64,000 bases of DNA from contig JAIOZF010000006.1 in NCBI GenBank assembly GCA_021740745.1, positions 1-64,000 of the forward strand, given 5' to 3'. Numbering within the stretch: position 1 is the first letter of the stretch; the number at the start of each line of letters is the position of its first letter. The translations under genes and the position numbers were made by a program. The notes beneath the pieces were generated by a model. It saw only the letters and a list, made by a program, of their open reading frames with translations, made no database searches and was not told the DNA's origin. Positions 2,786 through 28,110 of the stretch are shown here, piece by piece. Source of the DNA: Crocinitomicaceae bacterium. GTDB lineage: Bacteria; Bacteroidota; Bacteroidia; Flavobacteriales_D; Crocinitomicaceae.

Positions 2786-3640
2786 ATGGGATTTTCAAGC
2801 GTTGAAGATACACATTTTCCGATAAATCGCCACCTTCGGCTAAAGGATAAATTATTTGACCTTAGCACACCAAAAGTGATGGGGATAGTCAACTTAACAC
2901 CAGATTCATTCTACCAATCAAGTCGTATATCGGCTGATAAAGAATTACTTAAACAGGTTGAATCCATGCTGAATTACGGTATGGATATTCTTGATTTAGG
3001 AGGGTATTCAAGTCGACCAGGAGCAAAAAATGTTTCGATACAAGAAGAAATTGATCGTGTAAAAGGTCCAATTCAGCAAATTAAAAATGCGTTTCCTTCA
3101 CTTCCATTATCGCTTGACACCTTTCGTTCGGATGTTGCAGAAGTAGGTATTAATGAAGGTATTGAGATAATCAATGATATCAGTGCTGGATTATTAGATG
3201 ACCGAATTTTAGACGTCGTTGCGGCTGCAAAAGTGCCTTATATTGCGATGCATATGCAAGGGAATATGGAGACAGTTCATAACACATTCGAATATGGCGA
3301 ATTGTTCAATGAATTGGTTCGTTATTTTTCGGAGCGCATATCCACACTTCAATCAAAAGGAATACATGATATCATTTTAGATCCGGGGTTTGGATTTAGT
3401 AAAAGTATTGAACAGAACTATCAATTATTAAATCAATTGGATCAATTCCAACTTCTTGAAAAACCAATTTTAGTAGGTTTTTCGCGCAAATCGATGATTT
3501 ACAAAAAATTAAACAAAACTGCGGAAGAATCTTTAAATGGCACAACGGTTTTAAATACCATTGCCTTGTCTAAAGGGGCAAGTATCTTGAGGGTTCATGA
3601 TGTAAAAGAAGCCAAAGAAATTATATCCTTGCTTTTCTAA
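2786..3640 (+). CDS. folP: Dihydropteroate synthase
   Basis: Condenses 7,8-dihydropterin pyrophosphate with p-aminobenzoate in folate synthesis; target of sulfonamides. All family motifs are visible: VMGIVNLTPDSF (residues 31-42), GGYSSRPGA (72-80), the pterin-binding D111 in SLDTF, IND at 129-131, DPGFGFSK (199-206) and GFSRKS (231-236). The length of 284 residues is normal, but the N-terminus carries about 20 extra residues before the usual first strand, so a later start cannot be excluded. It is divergent from DUF1599 with 10 bp between the start codons, so its promoter must lie inside that gene. Confidence 0.96.
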   Translation: MGFSSVEDTHFPINRHLRLKDKLFDLSTPKVMGIVNLTPDSFYQSSRISADKELLKQVESMLNYGMDILDLGGYSSRPGAKNVSIQEEIDRVKGPIQQIKNAFPSLPLSLDTFRSDVAEVGINEGIEIINDISAGLLDDRILDVVAAAKVPYIAMHMQGNMETVHNTFEYGELFNELVRYFSERISTLQSKGIHDIILDPGFGFSKSIEQNYQLLNQLDQFQLLEKPILVGFSRKSMIYKKLNKTAEESLNGTTVLNTIALSKGASILRVHDVKEAKEIISLLF

Positions 3641-3713
3641 CTTTTTTCCAATTGTGACGTACTATTTCTCAATTTGAATTCCTATATTCGATATATATTC
3701 TAGACGATTTATT

Positions 3714-5969
3714 ATGTTAAAAAACTATTTTCTACTGTTAATGTTGAGTTTTATTTCTTTTATGAGTATTTCTCAAACACCAATTTGGACAGAAGCATTT
3801 CAAAACGCATGCGCGAGTGATTGTCCCGGAAATGGTTACGCAGGTCCGAATGGCGCATGGAGTGTTGCTGCTTCTGGAATTAATGGCACTGATGCAAATC
3901 TTTGGTATGTAAGTGGCGCCGAATGCGGAAACGCAGCCGCAGCTTGTGGCTCTGTATGTGGAACTATAGATCCATCACTACATATTAGCGCAAACCCAAG
4001 TGTTATTGGTGATCAAGGTGCTGCTTATTTAGCAGGTGGATTAGGATTTTGGGATCCTGTGACAGATAGCAGAGCTGAATCTCCCGTAATTAATCTTGCT
4101 GGACAAAGCACTATGACATTGACTTTTAATTATATTGAAAACGGTCAAGCTGCTATAGATGACGCTTCCCTTTGGTATTTTGATGGCGCAACATGGACAC
4201 TTTTAAGTGCGCTAGCTAAAACACCTTTAACCTGCAATCCACAGGGTACATGGACAGCCTTTAGTATTGCGATGCCAACTTCCGCTAATAATAATCCAAA
4301 TGTAAAAATTGGGTTTAGATGGGTGAACAACGATGACAATGTCGGAACTGATCCTTCCTTTGCGGTTGATGATATCCAAATTACAATTCCGTCTGTTGGT
4401 GCGCCACCAGTTGCTAATTTCTCAACTCCAACCACAACTATCTGTGAAGGAACATGCATTAATTTCACGAATACTAGTACATTTAGTGCTGGAGCAACCT
4501 TTGCATGGAATTTTGGTGATGGTCAAGTATCAGCCTTACAAGATCCAACTAATATCTGTTATAATAACGCTGGTTCATTTACTGTGACTTTAATCGTTAC
4601 AGATGCGAATGGGACTGACACTGAAACGAAAACGAATTACATCGTAGTAAATGCACCTGTCAGTGCTGGGGCCGATAACACTGGTTCTGTCTGCAACAAT
4701 ACGACATTAAGTTTACCAACTTTATTAAGTGGTGCAAGCGCTGGTGGTGTTTGGGTTGAAACGACAGGGATTTCAAGTGGACAATTTAATGCTGGAACAG
4801 GAGTTTTTAATGCAAATGGTTTAACACCTGGAACTTATACATTTAGTTATTCAGTAACAGGAACAGCTCCTTGTCCAAATGACCAAGCGGTTTTTTCCAT
4901 TACAGTTAATGACTGTTCAGCTGGACCGATTGCGATTATTAATGCGTCAAACTTAACCGTTTGTCAAGGTCAATCTTTATTATTTAACGATGCAAGTACT
5001 GGTTCAAATGTAGATACATGGGTATGGAGTTTTGGTAGTGGCTTACCAGGAACCGCTAATACCGCAGGACCTCACAGTGTGTTTTTTAATGCAGTAGGGA
5101 CATTTAATGTACAATTAACAGTTACGGATGATTTCGGCACGGATGATACGCTTATTTCAATTCAAGTAATACCTTGTAGCACACCAACAGCAGCATTTGC
5201 AATTTCGGATAATGATCCGTGTGCAGGTGATTGTATTACCTACACGAATAATTCAGTTTCTATAGGAACTCCAACTTACGCATGGACCTTTGCTGGAGGA
5301 TCACCTGCTACTTCAACTAGTGCAAATCCTGGACAAATTTGTTATGACACTCCTGGCACATATGCAGTTGATTTAGTTGTGACCAATGCATTTGGATTTG
5401 CGAATTATTCTCAAAACATTACTGTTCTTCCTCCCCCAACAATTGTTACTGGTGGAGATATCGTAATTAATCTGGGTGAAAGTGCAGTCATAACTGCCAC
5501 CGCATCATCAGGAACAATAACATGGGATTGGACACCAAATAATCAAGGAAACATTCTTGATTGTACGATTTCTGACTGTTCACAAGCTACGGTGAATCCA
5601 ACAATTACAACAACCTTCACAGCAACTACAACAACAACCGAAGGATGCACAGTAACAGATAATGTATTAATTGCTGTTAACGTGCCAGTTGGTGGATACG
5701 CAATTGGAGTTCCAACTTCATTTTCACCAAATGAAGATTCAAAGAATGACGTATTGTTAGTAAACGGAATAGGAATTACGACAATGTTCTTTAAAGTTTA
5801 TAATCGCTACGGTCAATTAGTTTTTGAATCAGACGACCAAAGTATTGGTTGGGATGGAAAAGTGAATGGAGAGCCATTGAATCCTGCCACTTTTGCTTGG
5901 ACCTTGGAATACGTGCTTGTTAATGGACAAGGCGGAAAAATGAATGGTAATGTTACACTTTTAAAATAA
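3714..5969 (+). CDS. Secreted PKD-repeat protein with type B (gliding-motility associated) sorting domain
   Basis: A 751-residue exported protein. A Sec signal peptide covers about residues 1-20 (hydrophobic core LLLMLSFISFM, cut after SISQ). Residues 21-225 form a Cys-rich N-terminal domain with a jelly-roll look. At least three PKD-like repeats follow, with the W-x-FG(D/S)G signatures at about 265 (WNFGDG) and 436 (WSFGSG) and a variant WTFAGG at about 525. The last 90 residues (FSPNEDSKNDV, FKVYNRYGQLVFES, GWDGKVNGE) are a CHU_C/type B C-terminal domain, the signal for type IX secretion and surface attachment. It is followed six bases later by a PorP/SprF protein, the usual partner of type B cargo. 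Probable adhesin; the ligand is unknown. Confidence 0.9.
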   Translation: MLKNYFLLLMLSFISFMSISQTPIWTEAFQNACASDCPGNGYAGPNGAWSVAASGINGTDANLWYVSGAECGNAAAACGSVCGTIDPSLHISANPSVIGDQGAAYLAGGLGFWDPVTDSRAESPVINLAGQSTMTLTFNYIENGQAAIDDASLWYFDGATWTLLSALAKTPLTCNPQGTWTAFSIAMPTSANNNPNVKIGFRWVNNDDNVGTDPSFAVDDIQITIPSVGAPPVANFSTPTTTICEGTCINFTNTSTFSAGATFAWNFGDGQVSALQDPTNICYNNAGSFTVTLIVTDANGTDTETKTNYIVVNAPVSAGADNTGSVCNNTTLSLPTLLSGASAGGVWVETTGISSGQFNAGTGVFNANGLTPGTYTFSYSVTGTAPCPNDQAVFSITVNDCSAGPIAIINASNLTVCQGQSLLFNDASTGSNVDTWVWSFGSGLPGTANTAGPHSVFFNAVGTFNVQLTVTDDFGTDDTLISIQVIPCSTPTAAFAISDNDPCAGDCITYTNNSVSIGTPTYAWTFAGGSPATSTSANPGQICYDTPGTYAVDLVVTNAFGFANYSQNITVLPPPTIVTGGDIVINLGESAVITATASSGTITWDWTPNNQGNILDCTISDCSQATVNPTITTTFTATTTTTEGCTVTDNVLIAVNVPVGGYAIGVPTSFSPNEDSKNDVLLVNGIGITTMFFKVYNRYGQLVFESDDQSIGWDGKVNGEPLNPATFAWTLEYVLVNGQGGKMNGNVTLLK

Positions 5970-17670: not shown

Positions 17671-18342
17671 TTATTTCAATACTTTAAAAAGTAAATCTTC
17701 AAGAAAAATTCCCGTAAATAACTCTCTGTTTTCTTCTTTTGCGTCCGTTAATTTTGGCAAATTCACACTAAAATATTGCTGATGATGTGAAGTTTCAATA
17801 AGGGTTGTACTCAAAGAATGCGGATATTCATATGATGGATTATACGCTGCAATAATCTCAGCTATGGTCGAACAAAGATCTTTATATGGCTTAAAAACCT
17901 GTTCCTTATTGATTTCAGAAACATCTTTCACTAAAAAAGCTTTACTACTTTCTGTAATAACGATCTGATTCAGTAATTTCTTATTGTAATCAAACTGACC
18001 TGAACTTTCTGGTAATTCATGTGTCAGCAAATCAACAACTAGTTTCAATCGTTCTTGTTTATCGGTAATATTCTGAAGTTTGAAAATGACTAAAAACTCC
18101 ATATAACACCAATACCAATTCAGAATGTAAAGAAGTAATCGATGCTTATTTTCAAAATAGCGATAAACTGTTGCTTCTGTACAATTAATTTCTTGAGCTA
18201 GTTTTTTGAAAGTAAACTGCTCAAAGCCCAAATTATGAATCAAATCAATTGCATTTTTTACAATCTGCTTACCGATTTCACTTGTTTCAGGATCTTTTAA
18301 AAAAATCTTATCGTTAACTTTAAAGGAAACTTGAAATTCCAT
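17671..18342 (-). CDS. TetR/AcrR-family repressor of the export operon
   Basis: A 223-residue regulator. The N-terminal helix-turn-helix is clear at about residues 28-65: IVKNAIDLIHNLGFEQFTFKKLAQEINCTEATVYRYFENKHRLL. The C-terminal ligand region is divergent, so the inducer cannot be predicted. The frame extends to a TTG at 18360, which lies inside the -7 element, so I chose the ATG at 18342. It is divergent from the ABC/HlyD/TolC operon. A 27-bp palindrome between the two promoters is the likely operator, so it probably represses both itself and the operon. Confidence 0.88.
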   Translation of the reverse strand: MEFQVSFKVNDKIFLKDPETSEIGKQIVKNAIDLIHNLGFEQFTFKKLAQEINCTEATVYRYFENKHRLLLYILNWYWCYMEFLVIFKLQNITDKQERLKLVVDLLTHELPESSGQFDYNKKLLNQIVITESSKAFLVKDVSEINKEQVFKPYKDLCSTIAEIIAAYNPSYEYPHSLSTTLIETSHHQQYFSVNLPKLTDAKEENRELFTGIFLEDLLFKVLK

Positions 18343-18357
18343 GTTTGAAAATTTATA

Positions 18358-18365
18358 CAAATATA
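18358..18365 (-). promoter_or_regulatory. -7 element for the tetR gene
   Basis: TATATTTG on the minus strand, 15 bases before the ATG at 18342. Confidence 0.45.
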
Positions 18366-18420
18366 TAGCAGATATTTCATGAAAAGAAGTAAATGTATTA
18401 AAAATAAAAATTTAACAATT

Positions 18421-18447
18421 ATTAATGATAGTAATACTATTATTAAT
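18421..18447. promoter_or_regulatory. 27-bp palindromic operator between tetR and the export operon
   Basis: The left half ATTAATgATAGTA and right half TACTATtATTAAT are mirror images around one central base; all 24 arm positions pair except the single g/t position in each arm. It ends 12 bases before the -7 element of the export operon (18460-18467), so it covers the -33 zone. A dyad of this size suits a TetR dimer or a pair of dimers. Confidence 0.7.
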
Positions 18448-18459
18448 GGAGACAATTTG

Positions 18460-18467
18460 TATATTTG
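18460..18467 (+). promoter_or_regulatory. -7 element for the export operon
   Basis: TATATTTG fits TAnnTTTG exactly, 41 bases before the TTG start codon at 18509. Confidence 0.5.
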
Positions 18468-18508
18468 CTCATTAAAACAGCTTTACAGTTAATTTAAAAC
18501 TAACATAA

Positions 18509-20212
18509 TTGAAAAATCAAACACCAAAAACATTAACTAGATTCTGGTCTTTGTTAAAAAAGGACCGTAAAGAAATTCGCAACATTTACATATTCGCCGT
18601 TCTAAGTGGTATATTAAGTTTGGGCCTACCCCTCGGCATTCAAAGTATCATCAACTTCATTCAATTAGGACAATTAAGTGCATCATGGATGGTTCTCGTT
18701 GGACTTGTTGTTCTTGCAATTGGGTTTGCAGGTATACTCAATATTTATCAAATGCGTATAACTGAAAATCTCCAGCAAAAAATCTTTACGCGATCTGCCT
18801 TTGAATTTGCGGATAGACTACCAAAAATCAACATGAGTGAATTATTAGAACGCTATGCTCCAGAATTGACAAATCGTTTTTTTGATACGTTGACCATTCA
18901 AAAAGGCCTCTCAAAGTTATTGCTTGATTTCACTGCTGCTTCGCTACAAGTTGTTTTTGGATTGATTCTCTTGTCAATGTATCACAGCTTTTTTATTATT
19001 CTCGGCGTCTTCTTGGTGGGGCTACTTGTCGTTATCATTCGATATACAGCGAATCGCGGTTTTGTATCAAGTATGGAGGAGTCGAAATCTAAATATAAGA
19101 TTGCAAATTGGTTACTTGAAATCGCACATGCAAGGGTAAGTTTTAAAATGGCTGGTCACAACCGTTTACATGTCAACAAAACAGATAAATACTTAAATGA
19201 ATACCTAAATGCACGTGAAAAACACTTCAAAGTACTTGTTCAACAATATAGTTTTCTAATTGCTTTCAAGGTAATAATTGCATTGACCTTATTGCTTGTT
19301 GGTGGATTACTTGTTTTAAACCAGCAAATGAACATCGGACAATTTGTAGCTTCAGAGATTATCATTTTATTGGTTCTATCATCAGTAGAAAAAATCATTT
19401 TAAGCATTGATATAGTTTATGATGTTATTACCGCTATTGAAAAAGTAGGCGAAGTGACCGATTTAAAACTGGAAACAACAGGCGGAAGACACCCTAATTT
19501 TGAAAACGAAAATGGATTTCGCATTAAGTTGAATAATATCAGTTATCAACCCCATTGCTACATCGCGCCTATTTTAACAAACGTATCAATCAATATACAA
19601 TCCAACGAAATTGTCAGTGTCATTTCCGATTCAAGTGTATCTCCGAACACCTTGTTTTCATTGATTGGCGGATTATACGAAACAGATGAAGGCAGCTTAT
19701 CCGTAAATGATTTACCAATAACAAATATTGATAAAATTTCATTGAGAGACTCCATAGGTACAATCCTTCAGCAGGATAAATTGATACATGCCTCACTTTT
19801 TGAAAACATTTCGTTTGGAAGGGAAAAGGTTTCAATTAATAGTATTATGGCTGTTGCAAAGCAAGTTGGACTTGATCGAGATTTGGAAATTTTTAAATCT
19901 GGTTTTGATACTATGATTAATCCAGAAGGACACTTTATTCCAGAGGAAGTTATTCAAAAAATTCTCCTGGTTAGAGCGATTGTTCACCAACCAAAGTTGT
20001 TGTTAATTGAAAACCCAACCGATCGAATGAAAGAAAAATGTATTCAATCATTCATTGAAATTATACAATCGCTTAAGAATTGTACGATTCTCTTATCCAC
20101 CTCGGATGAGGAGATTTTAAAAAAGTCGAATCGAATTATTTGTATCAAAAATGGACAAATCGATTTTGAAGGTGATTATTCAGCATACATTAATACAAAG
20201 AAATCATGTTAA
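18509..20212 (+). CDS. ABC exporter-like protein with degenerate ATPase domain
   Basis: A 567-residue half-transporter shape: membrane domain about 25-300 with up to six helices, then a nucleotide-binding-like domain about 335-560. The ATPase motifs are lost. The Walker A loop reads SDSSVSPNT (373-381), with the essential lysine replaced by P379. The LSGGQ signature is IPEEVIQK (478-485). Walker B and the catalytic glutamate read LLIEN (498-502) instead of LLLDE. The D-loop is DRMK, and the switch histidine is absent in LLSTSDEE. The Q-loop glutamine (Q421/Q422) remains. The frame is open and full length, so this is not simple decay. It starts with TTG. It overlaps the HlyD-type gene by seven bases. 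Probably a structural or pseudo-ATPase exporter subunit. Confidence 0.85.
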   Translation: MKNQTPKTLTRFWSLLKKDRKEIRNIYIFAVLSGILSLGLPLGIQSIINFIQLGQLSASWMVLVGLVVLAIGFAGILNIYQMRITENLQQKIFTRSAFEFADRLPKINMSELLERYAPELTNRFFDTLTIQKGLSKLLLDFTAASLQVVFGLILLSMYHSFFIILGVFLVGLLVVIIRYTANRGFVSSMEESKSKYKIANWLLEIAHARVSFKMAGHNRLHVNKTDKYLNEYLNAREKHFKVLVQQYSFLIAFKVIIALTLLLVGGLLVLNQQMNIGQFVASEIIILLVLSSVEKIILSIDIVYDVITAIEKVGEVTDLKLETTGGRHPNFENENGFRIKLNNISYQPHCYIAPILTNVSINIQSNEIVSVISDSSVSPNTLFSLIGGLYETDEGSLSVNDLPITNIDKISLRDSIGTILQQDKLIHASLFENISFGREKVSINSIMAVAKQVGLDRDLEIFKSGFDTMINPEGHFIPEEVIQKILLVRAIVHQPKLLLIENPTDRMKEKCIQSFIEIIQSLKNCTILLSTSDEEILKKSNRIICIKNGQIDFEGDYSAYINTKKSC

Positions 20213-21552
20213 ATCTTTCACCTGAAAACGTTAATCAGATTGATCAAAAAGGATTGAAGTCTTTGCACCGCGTAGAGCAAAAAAAGTCTTCTCATAAATT
20301 ACTTAAAGTTATATATGCTTTCTTTATCATCCTTTTTTTGATTTTGTTTCTACCATGGACACAGAATATACGCTCAAAGGGTAGTTTAACCACTTTGCGC
20401 CCCGAACAAAAGCCGCAAACAATCAATACTATAATTCCAGGTCGAATTGAAAAATGGTTTGTAAAAGATGGAGATATTGTAAAAAAGGGTGATACGATTC
20501 TCTTTTTGTCTGAGGTGAAAAATGATTACTTGGATACTAATCTTGTGGGAAGAACACAAAAACAGTTGAAAACAAAAGAATTGTCTGTAGTAAGCTATAC
20601 CGATAAGATACAGTCGCTCGATAATCGAATTGATGCCTTGATAGAATCAGCTGGTTTGAAACTCCAACAAGCAAAAATCAAGTTAACTCAAGCAAATTTA
20701 AAATTGAAGTCTGACAGTATTGAATACCAAACAACTCAAATCAACTTAAAAGTAGCTGAAGATCAGTATGAACGTACTGAGAAACTTTACAAAGATGGTT
20801 TAAAATCAAAAACCGACTTAGAAGCAAGAAAAGTCGCCATGCAACGCGCTGAAGCAAATAAAATTGGTGCACAACAAAAGTTTCTTCAAAGTAAAAACGA
20901 TATTATTGATGCGCGTGTTGAATTAAACTCTATTCAAGCAAAATATAGAGATGAAGTTTCCAAAGCAGAATCGGATAAATTTACGGCTCTTTCCAGCATG
21001 TATGACGCAGAAGTAGATGTTACAAAAATGCAAGGACAATTGGTTAATTACTCCGTTCGAAACGGAATGTATTATATTCTTGCACCACAAGATGGAGTTG
21101 TAACAGCCGTATTATCTGGCGGAATTGGTGAAACTGTTAAAGAAGGTCAAGCCATTGCTACAATAATGCCTAAAAATTATGACTTAGCAATTGAGATGTA
21201 CGTCCGTCCAGTTGATTTACCTCTCGTTCAAAAAGGACAAAAAGTACGTGTTCAATTTGATGGATGGCCTGCAGTTGTTTTCTCCGGTTGGCCAAGCTCA
21301 AGCTTTGGAACCTTTGGAGGTGAAGTTTTCGCTATAGACAACTTCGCAAGTCCAGATGGAACGTTTAGAGTTCTAGTTGCACCCGATAAAAATGACAGAA
21401 AGTGGCCAGAACAATTGAGAGTTGGTGGTGGTTCAAATTCGATGCTTCTACTTAATAATGTTCCACTTGGTTATGAATTCTGGAGGCAAATCAATGGATT
21501 CCCACCCGATTTTTACCAGAAAAAAAATACAGACATTAAAGCCAAAAAATGA
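20206..21552 (+). CDS. HlyD-family periplasmic adaptor (membrane fusion protein)
   Basis: A 448-residue protein. A single membrane helix at about 30-48 (LLKVIYAFFIILFLILFLPW) follows a cytosolic tail. The biotinyl-lipoyl half appears at about 75-100 (GRIEKWFVKDGDIVKKGDTILFLSEVK), then a long coiled-coil hairpin (about 110-265), the second lipoyl half (APQDGVVTAVLSGGIGETVKEGQAI), and a beta-barrel region. It links the inner-membrane transporter to the outer-membrane channel. Its ATG lies inside the last codons of the ABC gene and its end overlaps the TolC gene (ATGA), so the three are made together. Confidence 0.93.
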   Translation: MLNLSPENVNQIDQKGLKSLHRVEQKKSSHKLLKVIYAFFIILFLILFLPWTQNIRSKGSLTTLRPEQKPQTINTIIPGRIEKWFVKDGDIVKKGDTILFLSEVKNDYLDTNLVGRTQKQLKTKELSVVSYTDKIQSLDNRIDALIESAGLKLQQAKIKLTQANLKLKSDSIEYQTTQINLKVAEDQYERTEKLYKDGLKSKTDLEARKVAMQRAEANKIGAQQKFLQSKNDIIDARVELNSIQAKYRDEVSKAESDKFTALSSMYDAEVDVTKMQGQLVNYSVRNGMYYILAPQDGVVTAVLSGGIGETVKEGQAIATIMPKNYDLAIEMYVRPVDLPLVQKGQKVRVQFDGWPAVVFSGWPSSSFGTFGGEVFAIDNFASPDGTFRVLVAPDKNDRKWPEQLRVGGGSNSMLLLNNVPLGYEFWRQINGFPPDFYQKKNTDIKAKK

Positions 21553-22940
21553 GAAACATCACTTTAATCGTTATCGTCTTTTTTCTGAGTCTATTTAACT
21601 TTGCTCAACAAGTTAGATTTGGAGAAGATCGTTTCTACGAATTGATTGTTAACAATCATCCATTGTCAAAACAAGCAAATCTAAAAGTCAATTTTGGAGA
21701 AAATTCTGTCCTTAAAGCAAGAGGTGCATTTGATCCAAAATTGTTTGGATCGCTTGATCAAAAATATTACAACTCTAGCCAATATTATGATTTGTTGAAT
21801 GCTGGATTAAAAGTTCCAACTTGGTTTGGATTAGAATTTAAAACAGGTTTTGAGAACAATCGCGGTGCATATGTAAGTGAGCAAAACAATACACCTCCAA
21901 ACGGTTTGTGGTATGGCGGTGTTTCAATGAATTTAGGACAAGGATTAATTATTGACAACCGGCGAGCTGAGCTTTTCAAAGCAAAAATATATGCTGAAAG
22001 TACATTTTTTGAAAAAGAACTTCAGTTAAATGAATTGATTTTTGAATCCGGATATTCCTATTGGAATTGGTTTTTATCCTATCATAGCGAGCAAACGTTA
22101 ATTGAAGCATATGATTTGGCATTAGAACGATTTAATGCCGTTAAAAGAATTTCCGAATTAGGTGATCGCCCTTCAATTGACACCGTCGAAGCAATCATTC
22201 AATTACAAAATAGAGAATCGTTGCTCCTAGACTTTAAAACAGAGCGACAAGCCACTATGTTTAATTTAAATTCATTCTTGTGGGATGAGAATGCTAATCC
22301 TCTGGAATTAGATAGTCTGACAATACCAATTGATTTAGATAGTATATCGCAACTACCACTTTGGCTCCCAACAGAGGAAGCAATTGATTCTGCCATTCAA
22401 CAGCATCCTTACCTTCAAATTGCAAACTTTAAAATTAAAAGTTTAGAGGTAGATAAGCGCTTGAAAAGAGAAATGCTGAAACCAACGCTTGATTTACAAT
22501 ACAATCTCATTAACGAACCAATTAATAGCAATCCGATTAATGACCTGTCCTTAAATAATTATAAATGGGGAGTAACGTTTGAGATGCCCCTATTCTTGAG
22601 AAAAGAACGTGGAGATTTACAATTGGCTAATTTAAAAATCCAAGATCAACAATTTGAATTGGATAACAAAAAGGCTTATATCGAGTTTAAAATCCGAAGT
22701 TCAATCGTTGAAATGACCAATGCATTGCGACAAGTGGAGATTTATCAAAAAAACGTGAAAGATTCTGAACAGCTGTTAAATGCAGAAAAACAAATGTTCG
22801 AAAATGGTGAAAGTTCATTGTTCTTGATAAATGCGCGTGAGACTTCCTATATCCAATCCAAGTTGAAACTTATTGAATCTTTAGTGAAAAGTCAGCAAAG
22901 CTATTTATCACTCCAATATGCGTTAGCGAATCTAATTTAG
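21549..22940 (+). CDS. TolC-family outer-membrane efflux protein
   Basis: A 463-residue protein with a signal peptide (about 1-19, ending FNFAQ). Two related halves carry long amphipathic helices, as in TolC (for example around 190-235 and 360-455), with NARETSYIQSKLKLIESL near the end. It forms the outer-membrane tunnel of the tripartite exporter with the two genes upstream. Last gene of the operon; 69 bases separate it from the MscS gene. Confidence 0.9.
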   Translation: MRNITLIVIVFFLSLFNFAQQVRFGEDRFYELIVNNHPLSKQANLKVNFGENSVLKARGAFDPKLFGSLDQKYYNSSQYYDLLNAGLKVPTWFGLEFKTGFENNRGAYVSEQNNTPPNGLWYGGVSMNLGQGLIIDNRRAELFKAKIYAESTFFEKELQLNELIFESGYSYWNWFLSYHSEQTLIEAYDLALERFNAVKRISELGDRPSIDTVEAIIQLQNRESLLLDFKTERQATMFNLNSFLWDENANPLELDSLTIPIDLDSISQLPLWLPTEEAIDSAIQQHPYLQIANFKIKSLEVDKRLKREMLKPTLDLQYNLINEPINSNPINDLSLNNYKWGVTFEMPLFLRKERGDLQLANLKIQDQQFELDNKKAYIEFKIRSSIVEMTNALRQVEIYQKNVKDSEQLLNAEKQMFENGESSLFLINARETSYIQSKLKLIESLVKSQQSYLSLQYALANLI

Positions 22941-23009: not shown

Positions 23010-23516
23010 ATGGAAAAATATACAATCCAACTTATCGAAAGCGGAATAGTAGTCATAGTTTATATACTACTCTATTTCACTACAAAAACAATCATCAACA
23101 ATGCTTTAAAAAACACGCATCTTCAACGGGCCAGAAGAAAAATGGTTGTAAAAGCGATTCAACTGATTATTACATTATTTGCCGTCATTTTTTTAGCTGG
23201 AATTTGGGGATTGGACCAAAGTGAATTGGCCATATTTGCCAGTTCTATTTTCACTGCGTTAGGAATTGCCTTTTTTGCCAAGTGGTCTCTCCTCTCAAAT
23301 ATTACTTCGAGCATAATTCTCTTTTTCAATCACCCATTAAAAATTGGGGATAAAGTTCGTATTCTAGATAAAGACTGTCCGTTTGAAGGTGAAATTTCCG
23401 ATTTGACTTATTTCTTTGTGCATTTAAAAAATGATGTTGGCGAAGTAATCACTGTTCCTAATTCACTCTTCTTGGAAAAATCAATTACGATAATTGCTAC
23501 TACGGAAAAAAACTAA
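23010..23516 (+). CDS. Short MscS-family mechanosensitive channel
   Basis: A 168-residue membrane protein. Helices at about 8-27, 45-66 and 70-100 are followed by the MscS pore-helix and beta-domain region (LLSNITSSIILFFNHPLKIGDKVRI, VITVPNSLFLEKSI). It stops right after the beta domain and lacks the C-terminal alpha/beta cage of full MscS (about 280 residues), so it is a minimal version. The DUF2490 gene begins five bases after the stop. Confidence 0.85.
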   Translation: MEKYTIQLIESGIVVIVYILLYFTTKTIINNALKNTHLQRARRKMVVKAIQLIITLFAVIFLAGIWGLDQSELAIFASSIFTALGIAFFAKWSLLSNITSSIILFFNHPLKIGDKVRILDKDCPFEGEISDLTYFFVHLKNDVGEVITVPNSLFLEKSITIIATTEKN

Positions 23517-23520
23517 AGGA

Positions 23521-24207
23521 ATGAAAAGATTGATTTTTATTGGCTTCATTTTACTCTTGAACTTAGGAGTAAGAGCTCAGAAAATTGACCTTGGCAGTTG
23601 GAATATGCTCAATATTAAATTCAATTTGAATCCTAAAATCAGTTTTTTTGGTGAAACCCAGCTCCGATCATTAAAATTCTATGACAATTTTCATTATTAC
23701 GAAGTAAAAGGAGGCGTAAATTACAAGCTCAATAGCAACCTGCAATTAACCCTAGCTTGTGGAAGTTATCAAACCTATAGAGAGGGTGGCAATTTTGTTT
23801 TACCCAAGAACAATGATGAATTTAGAATTTGGCCTCAATTACTTTTAATACAACCCATCGGAGCTTTTAAAATTGAACAACGTTACAGGGCTGAGTTGCG
23901 ATTTACAAGCGATGGATATCGAAACCGTTTTAGATATCGGTTAGGACTATCTTACCCATTTGGAAAGAAAAAAAATGATTTTAAACCTTTTCAAGTTTCA
24001 GCAAGTAATGAACTTTTCTTCACAAACAATGAACCCTATTTCGAACGCAACCGAATACAATTCACTTTTCAATTCAAGCCATCCAAAAACACAGCCATCC
24101 AACTTGGATATTTACACCAGTTTGATTACAAAATAAACGACGAAACAGGGCGAGATTTTCTTCAAATTGGATTTTTACTTGAGCTAAACAAAGCATCTAA
24201 ATCATAG
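23521..24207 (+). CDS. DUF2490 outer-membrane beta-barrel-like protein
   Basis: A 228-residue exported protein. The signal peptide covers about 1-19 (LIFIGFILLLNLGVRAQ). The body is a series of short amphipathic strands, with SWNMLNIKFNLNPKISFFGETQLRS at the start and FEQRYR-like EQRYRAELRF in the middle, as in DUF2490. It is probably an outer-membrane barrel of unknown role. A frame from TTG at 23494 adds nine codons that overlap the MscS gene; the ATG at 23521, directly before the signal peptide, is preferred. Confidence 0.8.
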   Translation: MKRLIFIGFILLLNLGVRAQKIDLGSWNMLNIKFNLNPKISFFGETQLRSLKFYDNFHYYEVKGGVNYKLNSNLQLTLACGSYQTYREGGNFVLPKNNDEFRIWPQLLLIQPIGAFKIEQRYRAELRFTSDGYRNRFRYRLGLSYPFGKKKNDFKPFQVSASNELFFTNNEPYFERNRIQFTFQFKPSKNTAIQLGYLHQFDYKINDETGRDFLQIGFLLELNKASKS

Positions 24208-26146: not shown

Positions 26147-26923
26147 ATGATTGAAGTTTCCAACCTAACAAAAGAGTTCGAATTAACGCGTCAACAGCGT
26201 AAAGAGCTCAATACCACGAATAAAATTGCACTTGCGGTCGACAATATCAGTTTTAAATGTGAACCAGGTCGCGTTTTCTCATTATTGGGTCCAAATGGAG
26301 CAGGTAAAACTACTACCCTGCGAATGCTTTCTACCATCTTTAAACCAACTTCAGGATCTATAAAAATTGCTGGAATTGACGCTGTGAAAAATCCACAAGA
26401 AGCGAGAAGTAAAATTGGTTTTTTAACAGGTTCAACAGGACTATACGCCCGTTTAACGCCCGATGAAGTGATTGATTATTTTGCCGCATTGTACAGCGTT
26501 CCAAAAAATTTATTGGAAGAGCGAAAAGAGCGACTTTTCAATTTATTGGACATGCAAGAATTCAGAGGAAAACGTATTGGGAAATTAAGTACCGGGATGA
26601 AACAAAAAGTTTCGATTTGTAGAACAATGATTCACGATCCAGAAGTTGTTGTTTTTGATGAACCCACAAGTGGATTGGATGTCATCACTGCTGAAAACAT
26701 AATTACACTCATTCGCGATTGCAAAACGCAAGGTAAAACCGTTATTTTCTCAAGTCATATTATGAGTGAAGTAGATTTGTTGTGTGATGATTTAGCCATT
26801 ATACACAAAGGGAAAATGTTGTTTGAAGGTACAATGGATGATTTCCGTTCTAATATGCAAACAGACAATCTAACTTCTGAATTCATCCGAATTATTCACG
26901 CATCTCAAACCGCAGCGATATGA
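26147..26923 (+). CDS. ABC transporter ATP-binding protein (NatA-like)
   Basis: A 258-residue ATPase with all motifs intact: Walker A GPNGAGKTT (about 48-56), signature LSTGMKQK, Walker B VVVFDEPTSGLD, and switch histidine in IFSSHIMSE. It partners the permease encoded four bases upstream of its own stop. NatA-type ATPases drive sodium, peptide or drug export. It contrasts with the degenerate ABC protein at 18509. Confidence 0.92.
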   Translation: MIEVSNLTKEFELTRQQRKELNTTNKIALAVDNISFKCEPGRVFSLLGPNGAGKTTTLRMLSTIFKPTSGSIKIAGIDAVKNPQEARSKIGFLTGSTGLYARLTPDEVIDYFAALYSVPKNLLEERKERLFNLLDMQEFRGKRIGKLSTGMKQKVSICRTMIHDPEVVVFDEPTSGLDVITAENIITLIRDCKTQGKTVIFSSHIMSEVDLLCDDLAIIHKGKMLFEGTMDDFRSNMQTDNLTSEFIRIIHASQTAAI

Positions 26924-28110
26924 TATTTACTATTTTCAAAAAAGAATTAAAAGATACGCTGAGAGATAGACGTACTTTGATGATGATGTTGGTAATACCA
27001 ATTCTGATCTTTCCAATTATCATGAATTTATTTGCTTCTGTGTCGAAAAGTTTTCAGGAAGAAGCAGCCAACAAAAAAATTAAAATTGGAATTGTTGGCA
27101 CAGAAAACAACTTTTTACAACTAGAATTGAACGCAATTCCAAAGGAATTAGGTGAAAAAGAAATCATTCTCTACAAAGACACCCTAAGTTTAATTAGTGA
27201 CTTAAAAAAAGATAGCCTTCAACTTGGTGCGTATGTCTCAAGTGAGTTTAATCAGTTAATGGATTCTATGAATCCTGCCCCTTTGACTTTTTTCTTTAAT
27301 GCAACTGATATGGGGATGCAAGAGCGCGCAGAAGCATACATGGCAGTTATTGACGCAAAGGCAAAATCAAAGCGTTTTGTAAAATTAGGGATTGAGGAAG
27401 CGCGCACTCAACCAATTACTACTGAGTATCGCAACATAGCTTCTGATAAGGAAATGATAGGAAAATTGGCTGGTGGTATTTTACCATACATTTTTATTGC
27501 ATTTGGGTTTATTGGATGCATGTACCCGGCAATTGATTTGTTCACCGGAGAAAAAGAAAGAGGTACCATAGAAACATTACTTACAACTCCTGTTGCTCGT
27601 TGGCAAATTCTATTCGGCAAAATGGGCGTTGTAGTACTTTCTGGTTTAACGGCCGCGACGTGCGCATTATTAGGACTCTTCTTCTCCATCGAATTTATTG
27701 ATTCAGAAGGAAATGCTGAGATTTTGAAAATTGTGCATAGCATCTTGAATCCAACCTTTATTGTTTTATTGTATAGCCTACTAATTCCTCTTACCGTGTT
27801 TTTTGCAGGTTTGATGATTCCCATAGCCGTCAATGCTAAAAGTTTTAAAGAAGCCCAAAGTATTATCACCCCTTTGAACATTGTGATGGTATTGCCTGCA
27901 ATGGTTGGCTTCTTTCCTGGAATAGAATTGAATTTTGTTACGGCATGTATTCCTGTTGTTAATATTGTATTAGCAACAAAAGAGCTTATTGCAGGTTCAT
28001 TGGACATTGGCTTGGTTGCGCTTAGTTTTTCTGTAATGATGAGTTTAGCTGTATTCTCAGTTATTTTTTCATATAAACGATTTGATAATGAGACAAATAT
28101 TATCATTTGA
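26920..28110 (+). CDS. ABC-2 type permease (NatB-like)
   Basis: A 396-residue permease. A first helix at about 20-40 (LMMMLVIPILIFPIIMNLF) follows the KKELKDTLRDRRT start. A large extracellular domain spans about 45-170. Five more helices lie in the C-terminal half (about 185-200, 232-252, 272-296, 316-335, 360-385). The motif FTGEKERGTIETLLTTPV is typical of ABC-2/NatB permeases. It overlaps the ATPase gene (ATGA). The substrate is not known. Confidence 0.9.
   Translation: MIFTIFKKELKDTLRDRRTLMMMLVIPILIFPIIMNLFASVSKSFQEEAANKKIKIGIVGTENNFLQLELNAIPKELGEKEIILYKDTLSLISDLKKDSLQLGAYVSSEFNQLMDSMNPAPLTFFFNATDMGMQERAEAYMAVIDAKAKSKRFVKLGIEEARTQPITTEYRNIASDKEMIGKLAGGILPYIFIAFGFIGCMYPAIDLFTGEKERGTIETLLTTPVARWQILFGKMGVVVLSGLTAATCALLGLFFSIEFIDSEGNAEILKIVHSILNPTFIVLLYSLLIPLTVFFAGLMIPIAVNAKSFKEAQSIITPLNIVMVLPAMVGFFPGIELNFVTACIPVVNIVLATKELIAGSLDIGLVALSFSVMMSLAVFSVIFSYKRFDNETNIII

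Follow-up and report, generated by a model that had tools for sequence, protein, structure and literature searches.

A family of TolC-linked, ABC-type exporters in Bacteroidota, represented in the window (the whole 64,000-nucleotide stretch of DNA analysed here) by a 567-residue protein encoded at 18509-20212 on the forward strand, appears to have been uncoupled from its own ATP hydrolysis, with its transmembrane domain (TMD) acting as a secondary (proton-driven) transporter or as a facilitator. Judged from sequence, selection estimates and one monomer model, this reading is assigned a probability of about 0.55. ABC exporters are the textbook case of primary pumps, their nucleotide-binding domain (NBD) hydrolysing ATP to drive the membrane domain. 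On a broader scale, it is about an even call whether the family constitutes a phylum-wide exporter lineage that passed from primary to secondary or passive transport, separately from SbmA, with all stages still alive: a near-consensus ATPase, a form that only binds ATP, one lacking Walker A (the window protein) and the TMD alone. If true, these stages would form an evolutionary series in which an ABC exporter gives up its coupling to ATP. The erosion and subsequent deletion of the ATPase, with retention of TMD, HlyD and TolC, would show that the TMD can work without it, and the natural series would supply matched proteins for asking how it does so.

Operon organization and distribution

The exporter gene is an unbroken frame of 567 codons starting with a TTG directly after an in-frame TAA, a start supported by several homologues that align from residue 1. 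It overlaps by 7 bp the gene for a 448-residue HlyD-type periplasmic adaptor (20206-21552, forward strand; TIGR01843, 4.6e-26; HlyD_3, 1.2e-11), which in turn overlaps by 4 bp the gene for a 463-residue TolC-type outer-membrane channel (21549-22940, forward strand; OEP, 3.6e-31); the intact, overlapping frames described in an earlier sequence-only reading of this DNA are confirmed. The operon brings together the three genes of a type I secretion system, for ABC protein, periplasmic adaptor and outer-membrane duct. A TetR-family regulator lies on the reverse strand (17671-18360; Pfam TetR_N, 5.5e-8), and the intergenic region (18361-18508) contains a 13-bp perfect palindrome, ATAGTAATACTAT, at 18428-18440, possibly a TetR operator. 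The regulator gene is divergent at the window locus, whereas most relatives, among them those from the window's genus, have it directly upstream of the ABC gene and in the same orientation; it is also divergent or inverted at three other loci (L074, L199 and L200).

Among species genomes scanned, 399 relatives were found, and the best 80 of these 399, which were kept, come mainly from Flavobacteriales, and also from Saprospiraceae, Chitinophagaceae, Cyclobacteriaceae and others. In a phylum-wide sample of 296 genomes, a profile search detected the family in 76, and within the genus of the window a clear member is present in most, not all, of 26 genomes (by family profile or protein). The HlyD and TolC genes follow immediately at nearly all loci and a TetR gene adjoins at most, and the TetR-ABC-HlyD-TolC operon recurs across Bacteroidota. 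A linked partner half-transporter was sought in the flanks of 120 loci; another ABC ATPase occurs at only three and none travels with the operon, in agreement with the sequence-only reading that no active ABC half is adjacent. A search of open-licence papers for a comparable Bacteroidota system returned nothing fitting, and reports published elsewhere may have been missed.

Further downstream in the window, outside the conserved operon, TolC is followed by a small mechanosensitive-channel-like gene and a gene for a DUF2490 protein (23010-24207). At 26147-28110, 3.2 kb beyond the operon, a canonical ABC ATPase (26147-26923) precedes a permease-like gene (26920-28110). This ATPase was considered as a partner subunit and rejected, as it has a permease-like gene of its own and is not a recurrent neighbour of the family.

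Loss of the ATPase motifs

The window protein consists of a TMD (residues 1-318; 18509-19462, forward strand), which is the conserved part and occurs alone in some relatives, and an NBD (residues 326-556; 19484-20176, forward strand). Both are matched weakly, above the Pfam cut-offs, by ABC_membrane (PF00664, 35.1 bits) and ABC_tran (PF00005, 31.3 bits), respectively. An AlphaFold2 monomer model (57 relatives in the alignment) has a pLDDT of 80.8 overall and about 82-94 across most of the NBD, and the best solved folds returned by Foldseek are PCAT1 (6v9z), TM287/288 and HlyB (7sgr/8dck). The PF00664 match, the model and the Foldseek matches together indicate a six-helix ABC transmembrane domain, while the PF00005 match and the confident modelling indicate an NBD fold that is predicted to be intact.

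The catalytic motifs of this NBD are lost. Alignments to solved ABC proteins place SDSSVSPNT (residues 373-381; 19625-19651), in which P379 replaces the Lys, at Walker A, and LLIEN (498-502; 20000-20014) at Walker B and the catalytic Glu, with E501-N502 on the D-E pair. IPEEV (477-481; 19937-19951) aligns at the LSGGQ position of the signature and, in the family alignment, S532 (20102-20104) stands in place of the switch His; all four motifs lie on the forward strand. The absence of the Walker A Lys, signature, catalytic Glu and switch His, as proposed in the sequence-only reading, is therefore upheld, and none of the elements of a working ATP site (Walker A Lys, LSGGQ, Walker B Asp and Glu, switch His) is retained. 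The Q-loop was also said to be kept; Q421 is indeed present, but it is unconserved in the family and even in the window's own clade. A composite ATP site is formed by Walker A and Walker B of one subunit together with the signature of the other. Since the window protein offers neither Walker A nor signature, the ABC mechanism implies that it would complete no consensus site, whether in a homodimer or in a heterodimer.

This loss is shared in graded form by the relatives, of which 171 aligned members were sorted into four motif states, in a sample that leans toward relatives of the window. Basal relatives, most of which are extended at the N terminus, contain GxxGxGK[ST], D-E and His, and their signature can be made out only in part (for example LSTGQ or LPGGL). 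The main family has neither His nor signature, and its D-E position reads E-D, K-D, E-N and similar; the Walker A Lys is present in 118 of the 152 aligned NBD-bearing ingroup sequences and is also lost in the other 34, the window protein included. Ten proteins of the set contain no NBD. The homologue alignment called for by the sequence-only reading shows Walker A Lys, D-E and His together in none of the 152 NBD-bearing relatives outside the basal group, and the motif loss is therefore due neither to chance nor to sequencing error. Read from these alignments, the loss is not special to the window gene, as a large Bacteroidota family descends from an ancestor that already lacked the signature, Glu and His.

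A maximum-likelihood tree was restricted to TMD columns, which keeps the trait under study from influencing the topology, and its root was placed at the basal group, taking an active ATPase to be ancestral. In this short search, where rooting and loss counts rest on SH-aLRT supports, the basal group falls to one side (100), the Walker A motif was lost at least twice, in the window clade (100) and in a second group (L161/L210 with L100-L103), and perhaps also in L098, and the NBD was lost once (99). The proteins L100-L104, L161 and L210 belong to a separate lineage, found partly in the window's own genus, with NBDs that are even more eroded; in L101 the ABC_tran match of Pfam is gone. The basal and early-branching proteins L150-L159 and L211-L214 carry an N-terminal extension of about 150-260 residues, with no Pfam match in those scanned.

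Relatives that consist of the TMD alone

In the ten TMD-only relatives (L146-L149 and L196-L201), the gene ends right after the conserved TDLxL linker, giving open frames of 334-361 residues, and HlyD and TolC come next, with no room for an NBD. Their genomes represent several genera and three families, and one of them is a single 7.0-Mb contig. The cytoplasmic loops of these proteins are full length, and the polar and charged residues E86, R123, K132, K136, E191, H239, E283, K295 and D305 of the TMD are unchanged. A relocated family NBD was sought by profile in all ten genomes and none was found, the best matches (166-184 bits) all being full exporters of about 600 residues; the same profile gives 268-304 bits on NBD-bearing sisters, some of which were in the profile and one of which, G074:C11 (298 bits), was outside it. 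The profile is weaker on strongly diverged NBDs, scoring 191.6 bits on the window NBD against 176.1 for the best generic exporter of the same genome, and a generic or strongly diverged NBD may act in trans in the TMD-only genomes.

Two further candidates were left uncounted: L202 (G505), which runs off the end of its contig, and L203 (G644), whose NBD is in another frame. In L203, at 3406-4925 of a draft genome, the TMD and NBD lie in different frames, reflecting a frameshift or an assembly error.

Selection on the two domains

Within the genus of the window, mean identity is 75% for the TMD and 45% for the NBD, compared to 72/75% and 86/86% (TMD/NBD) for two canonical exporter families from the same genomes. 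From close pairs with unsaturated synonymous change, omega was estimated at 0.021 (TMD) and 0.125 (NBD) for Walker-A-less pairs (n=8), and at 0.040 and 0.114 for Walker-A-keeping pairs (n=55), with 0.029/0.045 and 0.015/0.014 for the canonical controls. The median NBD/TMD dN ratio is 4.37, compared to 1.35 and 1.03 for the controls. The NBD remnant is still under selection, far less than the TMD. The view of the window protein as an ABC protein of pseudo-ATPase character that selection has maintained, within an HlyD- and TolC-containing export operon, is borne out by these data. The further statement that the locus reflects selection rather than decay, for which a dN/dS estimate had been suggested, holds for the frame as a whole and for the purifying selection on the NBD, but has to be tempered by the far stronger constraint on the TMD, an NBD dN about four times that of the TMD, and the deletion of the NBD in a sister clade.

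Within the NBD, conservation is comparatively high in the stretches once occupied by Walker A and Walker B. In the window clade the former Walker A is not drifting freely, because it carries a new conserved text, S-D-S-S-[LV]-[ST]-x-N; this pattern suggests that the stretch probably has a structural or regulatory role. The possibility that the remnant is best conserved at its docking face (Q-loop to ENI region), which would have pointed to a pure structural cap, was not supported, as 35% of same-sized NBD segments are as conserved.

Proposed mechanism and alternatives

In the proposed mechanism, the operon, under TetR control, would encode an exporter with three parts, namely the inner-membrane protein, the HlyD adaptor and the TolC duct. 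Its ancestor would be an HlyB/PCAT-type ABC exporter, and transport in its lineage would have become uncoupled from ATP hydrolysis. The NBD would be a leftover, still folded domain that does not hydrolyse ATP and, in the window clade, probably does not bind it, and would persist as a cap over the TMD with a structural or regulatory role. Transport would be carried out by TMD, adaptor and duct, most likely as a proton-driven secondary transporter or as a gated facilitator, the substrate in the latter version running down its own gradient in the presumed direction of export. The window protein and the TMD-only relatives are most simply accounted for together if transport no longer needs hydrolysis by the family protein. 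Of the two options offered by the sequence-only reading, we favour as the best reading that the exporter draws on something other than ATP hydrolysis of its own, while pairing with another ABC subunit in a heterodimer is disfavoured by the scarcity of flanking ABC ATPases and by the lack of a consensus site completable with any partner.

The data favour neither proton drive nor facilitated flow over the other. A proton relay gained along with ATPase loss was considered and rejected, as the basal group already has acidic residues at the positions of E86, E283 and E294; the presence of conserved TMD acids in this probably active group, as read from the alignment, counts against proton drive. Three observations run against uncoupling more generally: the NBD is still subject to purifying selection in Walker-A-less clades, and hence does something; the full-length cytoplasmic loops of the TMD-only proteins suggest that something still docks; and Walker A is kept in most members, where ATP binding may matter.

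The docking loops bear on an alternative in which the system is ATP-driven in trans, with a canonical ABC ATPase or exporter half encoded elsewhere pairing with both the window protein and its TMD-only relatives. The loops expected to touch an NBD persist in proteins that have lost the domain, the window genome encodes other ABC exporters, four of them canonical, and separate encoding of TMD and NBD is known for YddA (PMC13316013). Nevertheless, this arrangement is unlikely given the near-absence of linked ABC genes (3 of 120 loci), the failure of the profile search to find a relocated family NBD in the ten TMD-only genomes, and the inability of the window protein, lacking Walker A and signature, to complete either composite site; known exporters with a degenerate site keep one complete site (reviewed in PMC7756269).

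The retention of GxxGxGK[ST] in most members (Lys in 118 of 152), despite loss of the Glu, His and signature, is what a non-hydrolysing, ATP-gated exporter would explain, its NBD sensing a nucleotide or ligand and opening or closing the exporter in response, and the conserved replacement loop SDSSxSxN could then reflect a changed ligand or a loss of gating in the window clade. As an account of the whole family this is rather improbable, since it is inapplicable to the TMD-only relatives and hardly applicable to a window protein without the P-loop Lys. A true ATPase that has diverged and works with non-consensus residues would fit the predicted NBD fold and the reappearance of D-E or His at the right place in a few clade members, but is very improbable, as close relatives differ freely in the motif letters, which a catalytic site would hold constant, and the domain is dispensable in the sister clade. 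That the gene is dying, caught before its first frameshift, is scarcely credible: the NBD evolves fast and one draft genome has a split family gene (L203), but the selection estimates (omega about 0.02 for the TMD and 0.125 for the NBD) contradict it, as do intact frames and operon order across the phylum.

Relation to known transporters

The preferred reading, a TMD uncoupled from hydrolysis by its own NBD, has a precedent in the SbmA/BacA-like peptide transporters (SLiPT), in which an ABC-exporter-type TMD, derived from a full ABC ancestor, works without an NBD. SbmA itself is structurally solved and proton-driven, and probably arose from a YddA-like ABC ancestor (PMC13316013). By contrast, the window family is of a different lineage, and SbmA is an importer without HlyD or TolC. 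Decayed intermediates survive in the window family, and the window protein retains an NBD remnant that its relatives L146-L149 and L196-L201 lack; proton coupling would apply here by analogy. For the passive-flow route, TAP offers an example, since a mutation in its D-loop turns it into a nucleotide-gated facilitator (PMC7756269).

The heterodimeric exporters TM287/288, TmrAB and TAP resemble the window protein in having altered catalytic residues in a folded NBD. They contain one degenerate and one complete site and have a known partner, whereas the window protein could complete no site and has no linked partner gene.

The type I secretion exporters and PCATs (HlyB, PCAT1, NHLM_micro_ABC1/2) have in common with the window system the TMD and NBD fold and the presence of HlyD and TolC in one operon. 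Unlike a type I system, the window system would not be energised by its ABC ATPase, with the motifs lost here and the NBD absent in relatives, and no recognisable protein substrate gene was noted at the window locus. Compared to HlyB and PCAT1, the window protein lacks the ATPase motifs and any match to a C39-type peptidase, and it scores far under the NCBIfam cut-offs for NHLM_micro_ABC1/2 (153.9 bits versus 709.4 for TIGR03797). Members of the family pass the Pfam ABC cut-offs and could be miscounted in annotation as ATP-driven type I secretion systems.
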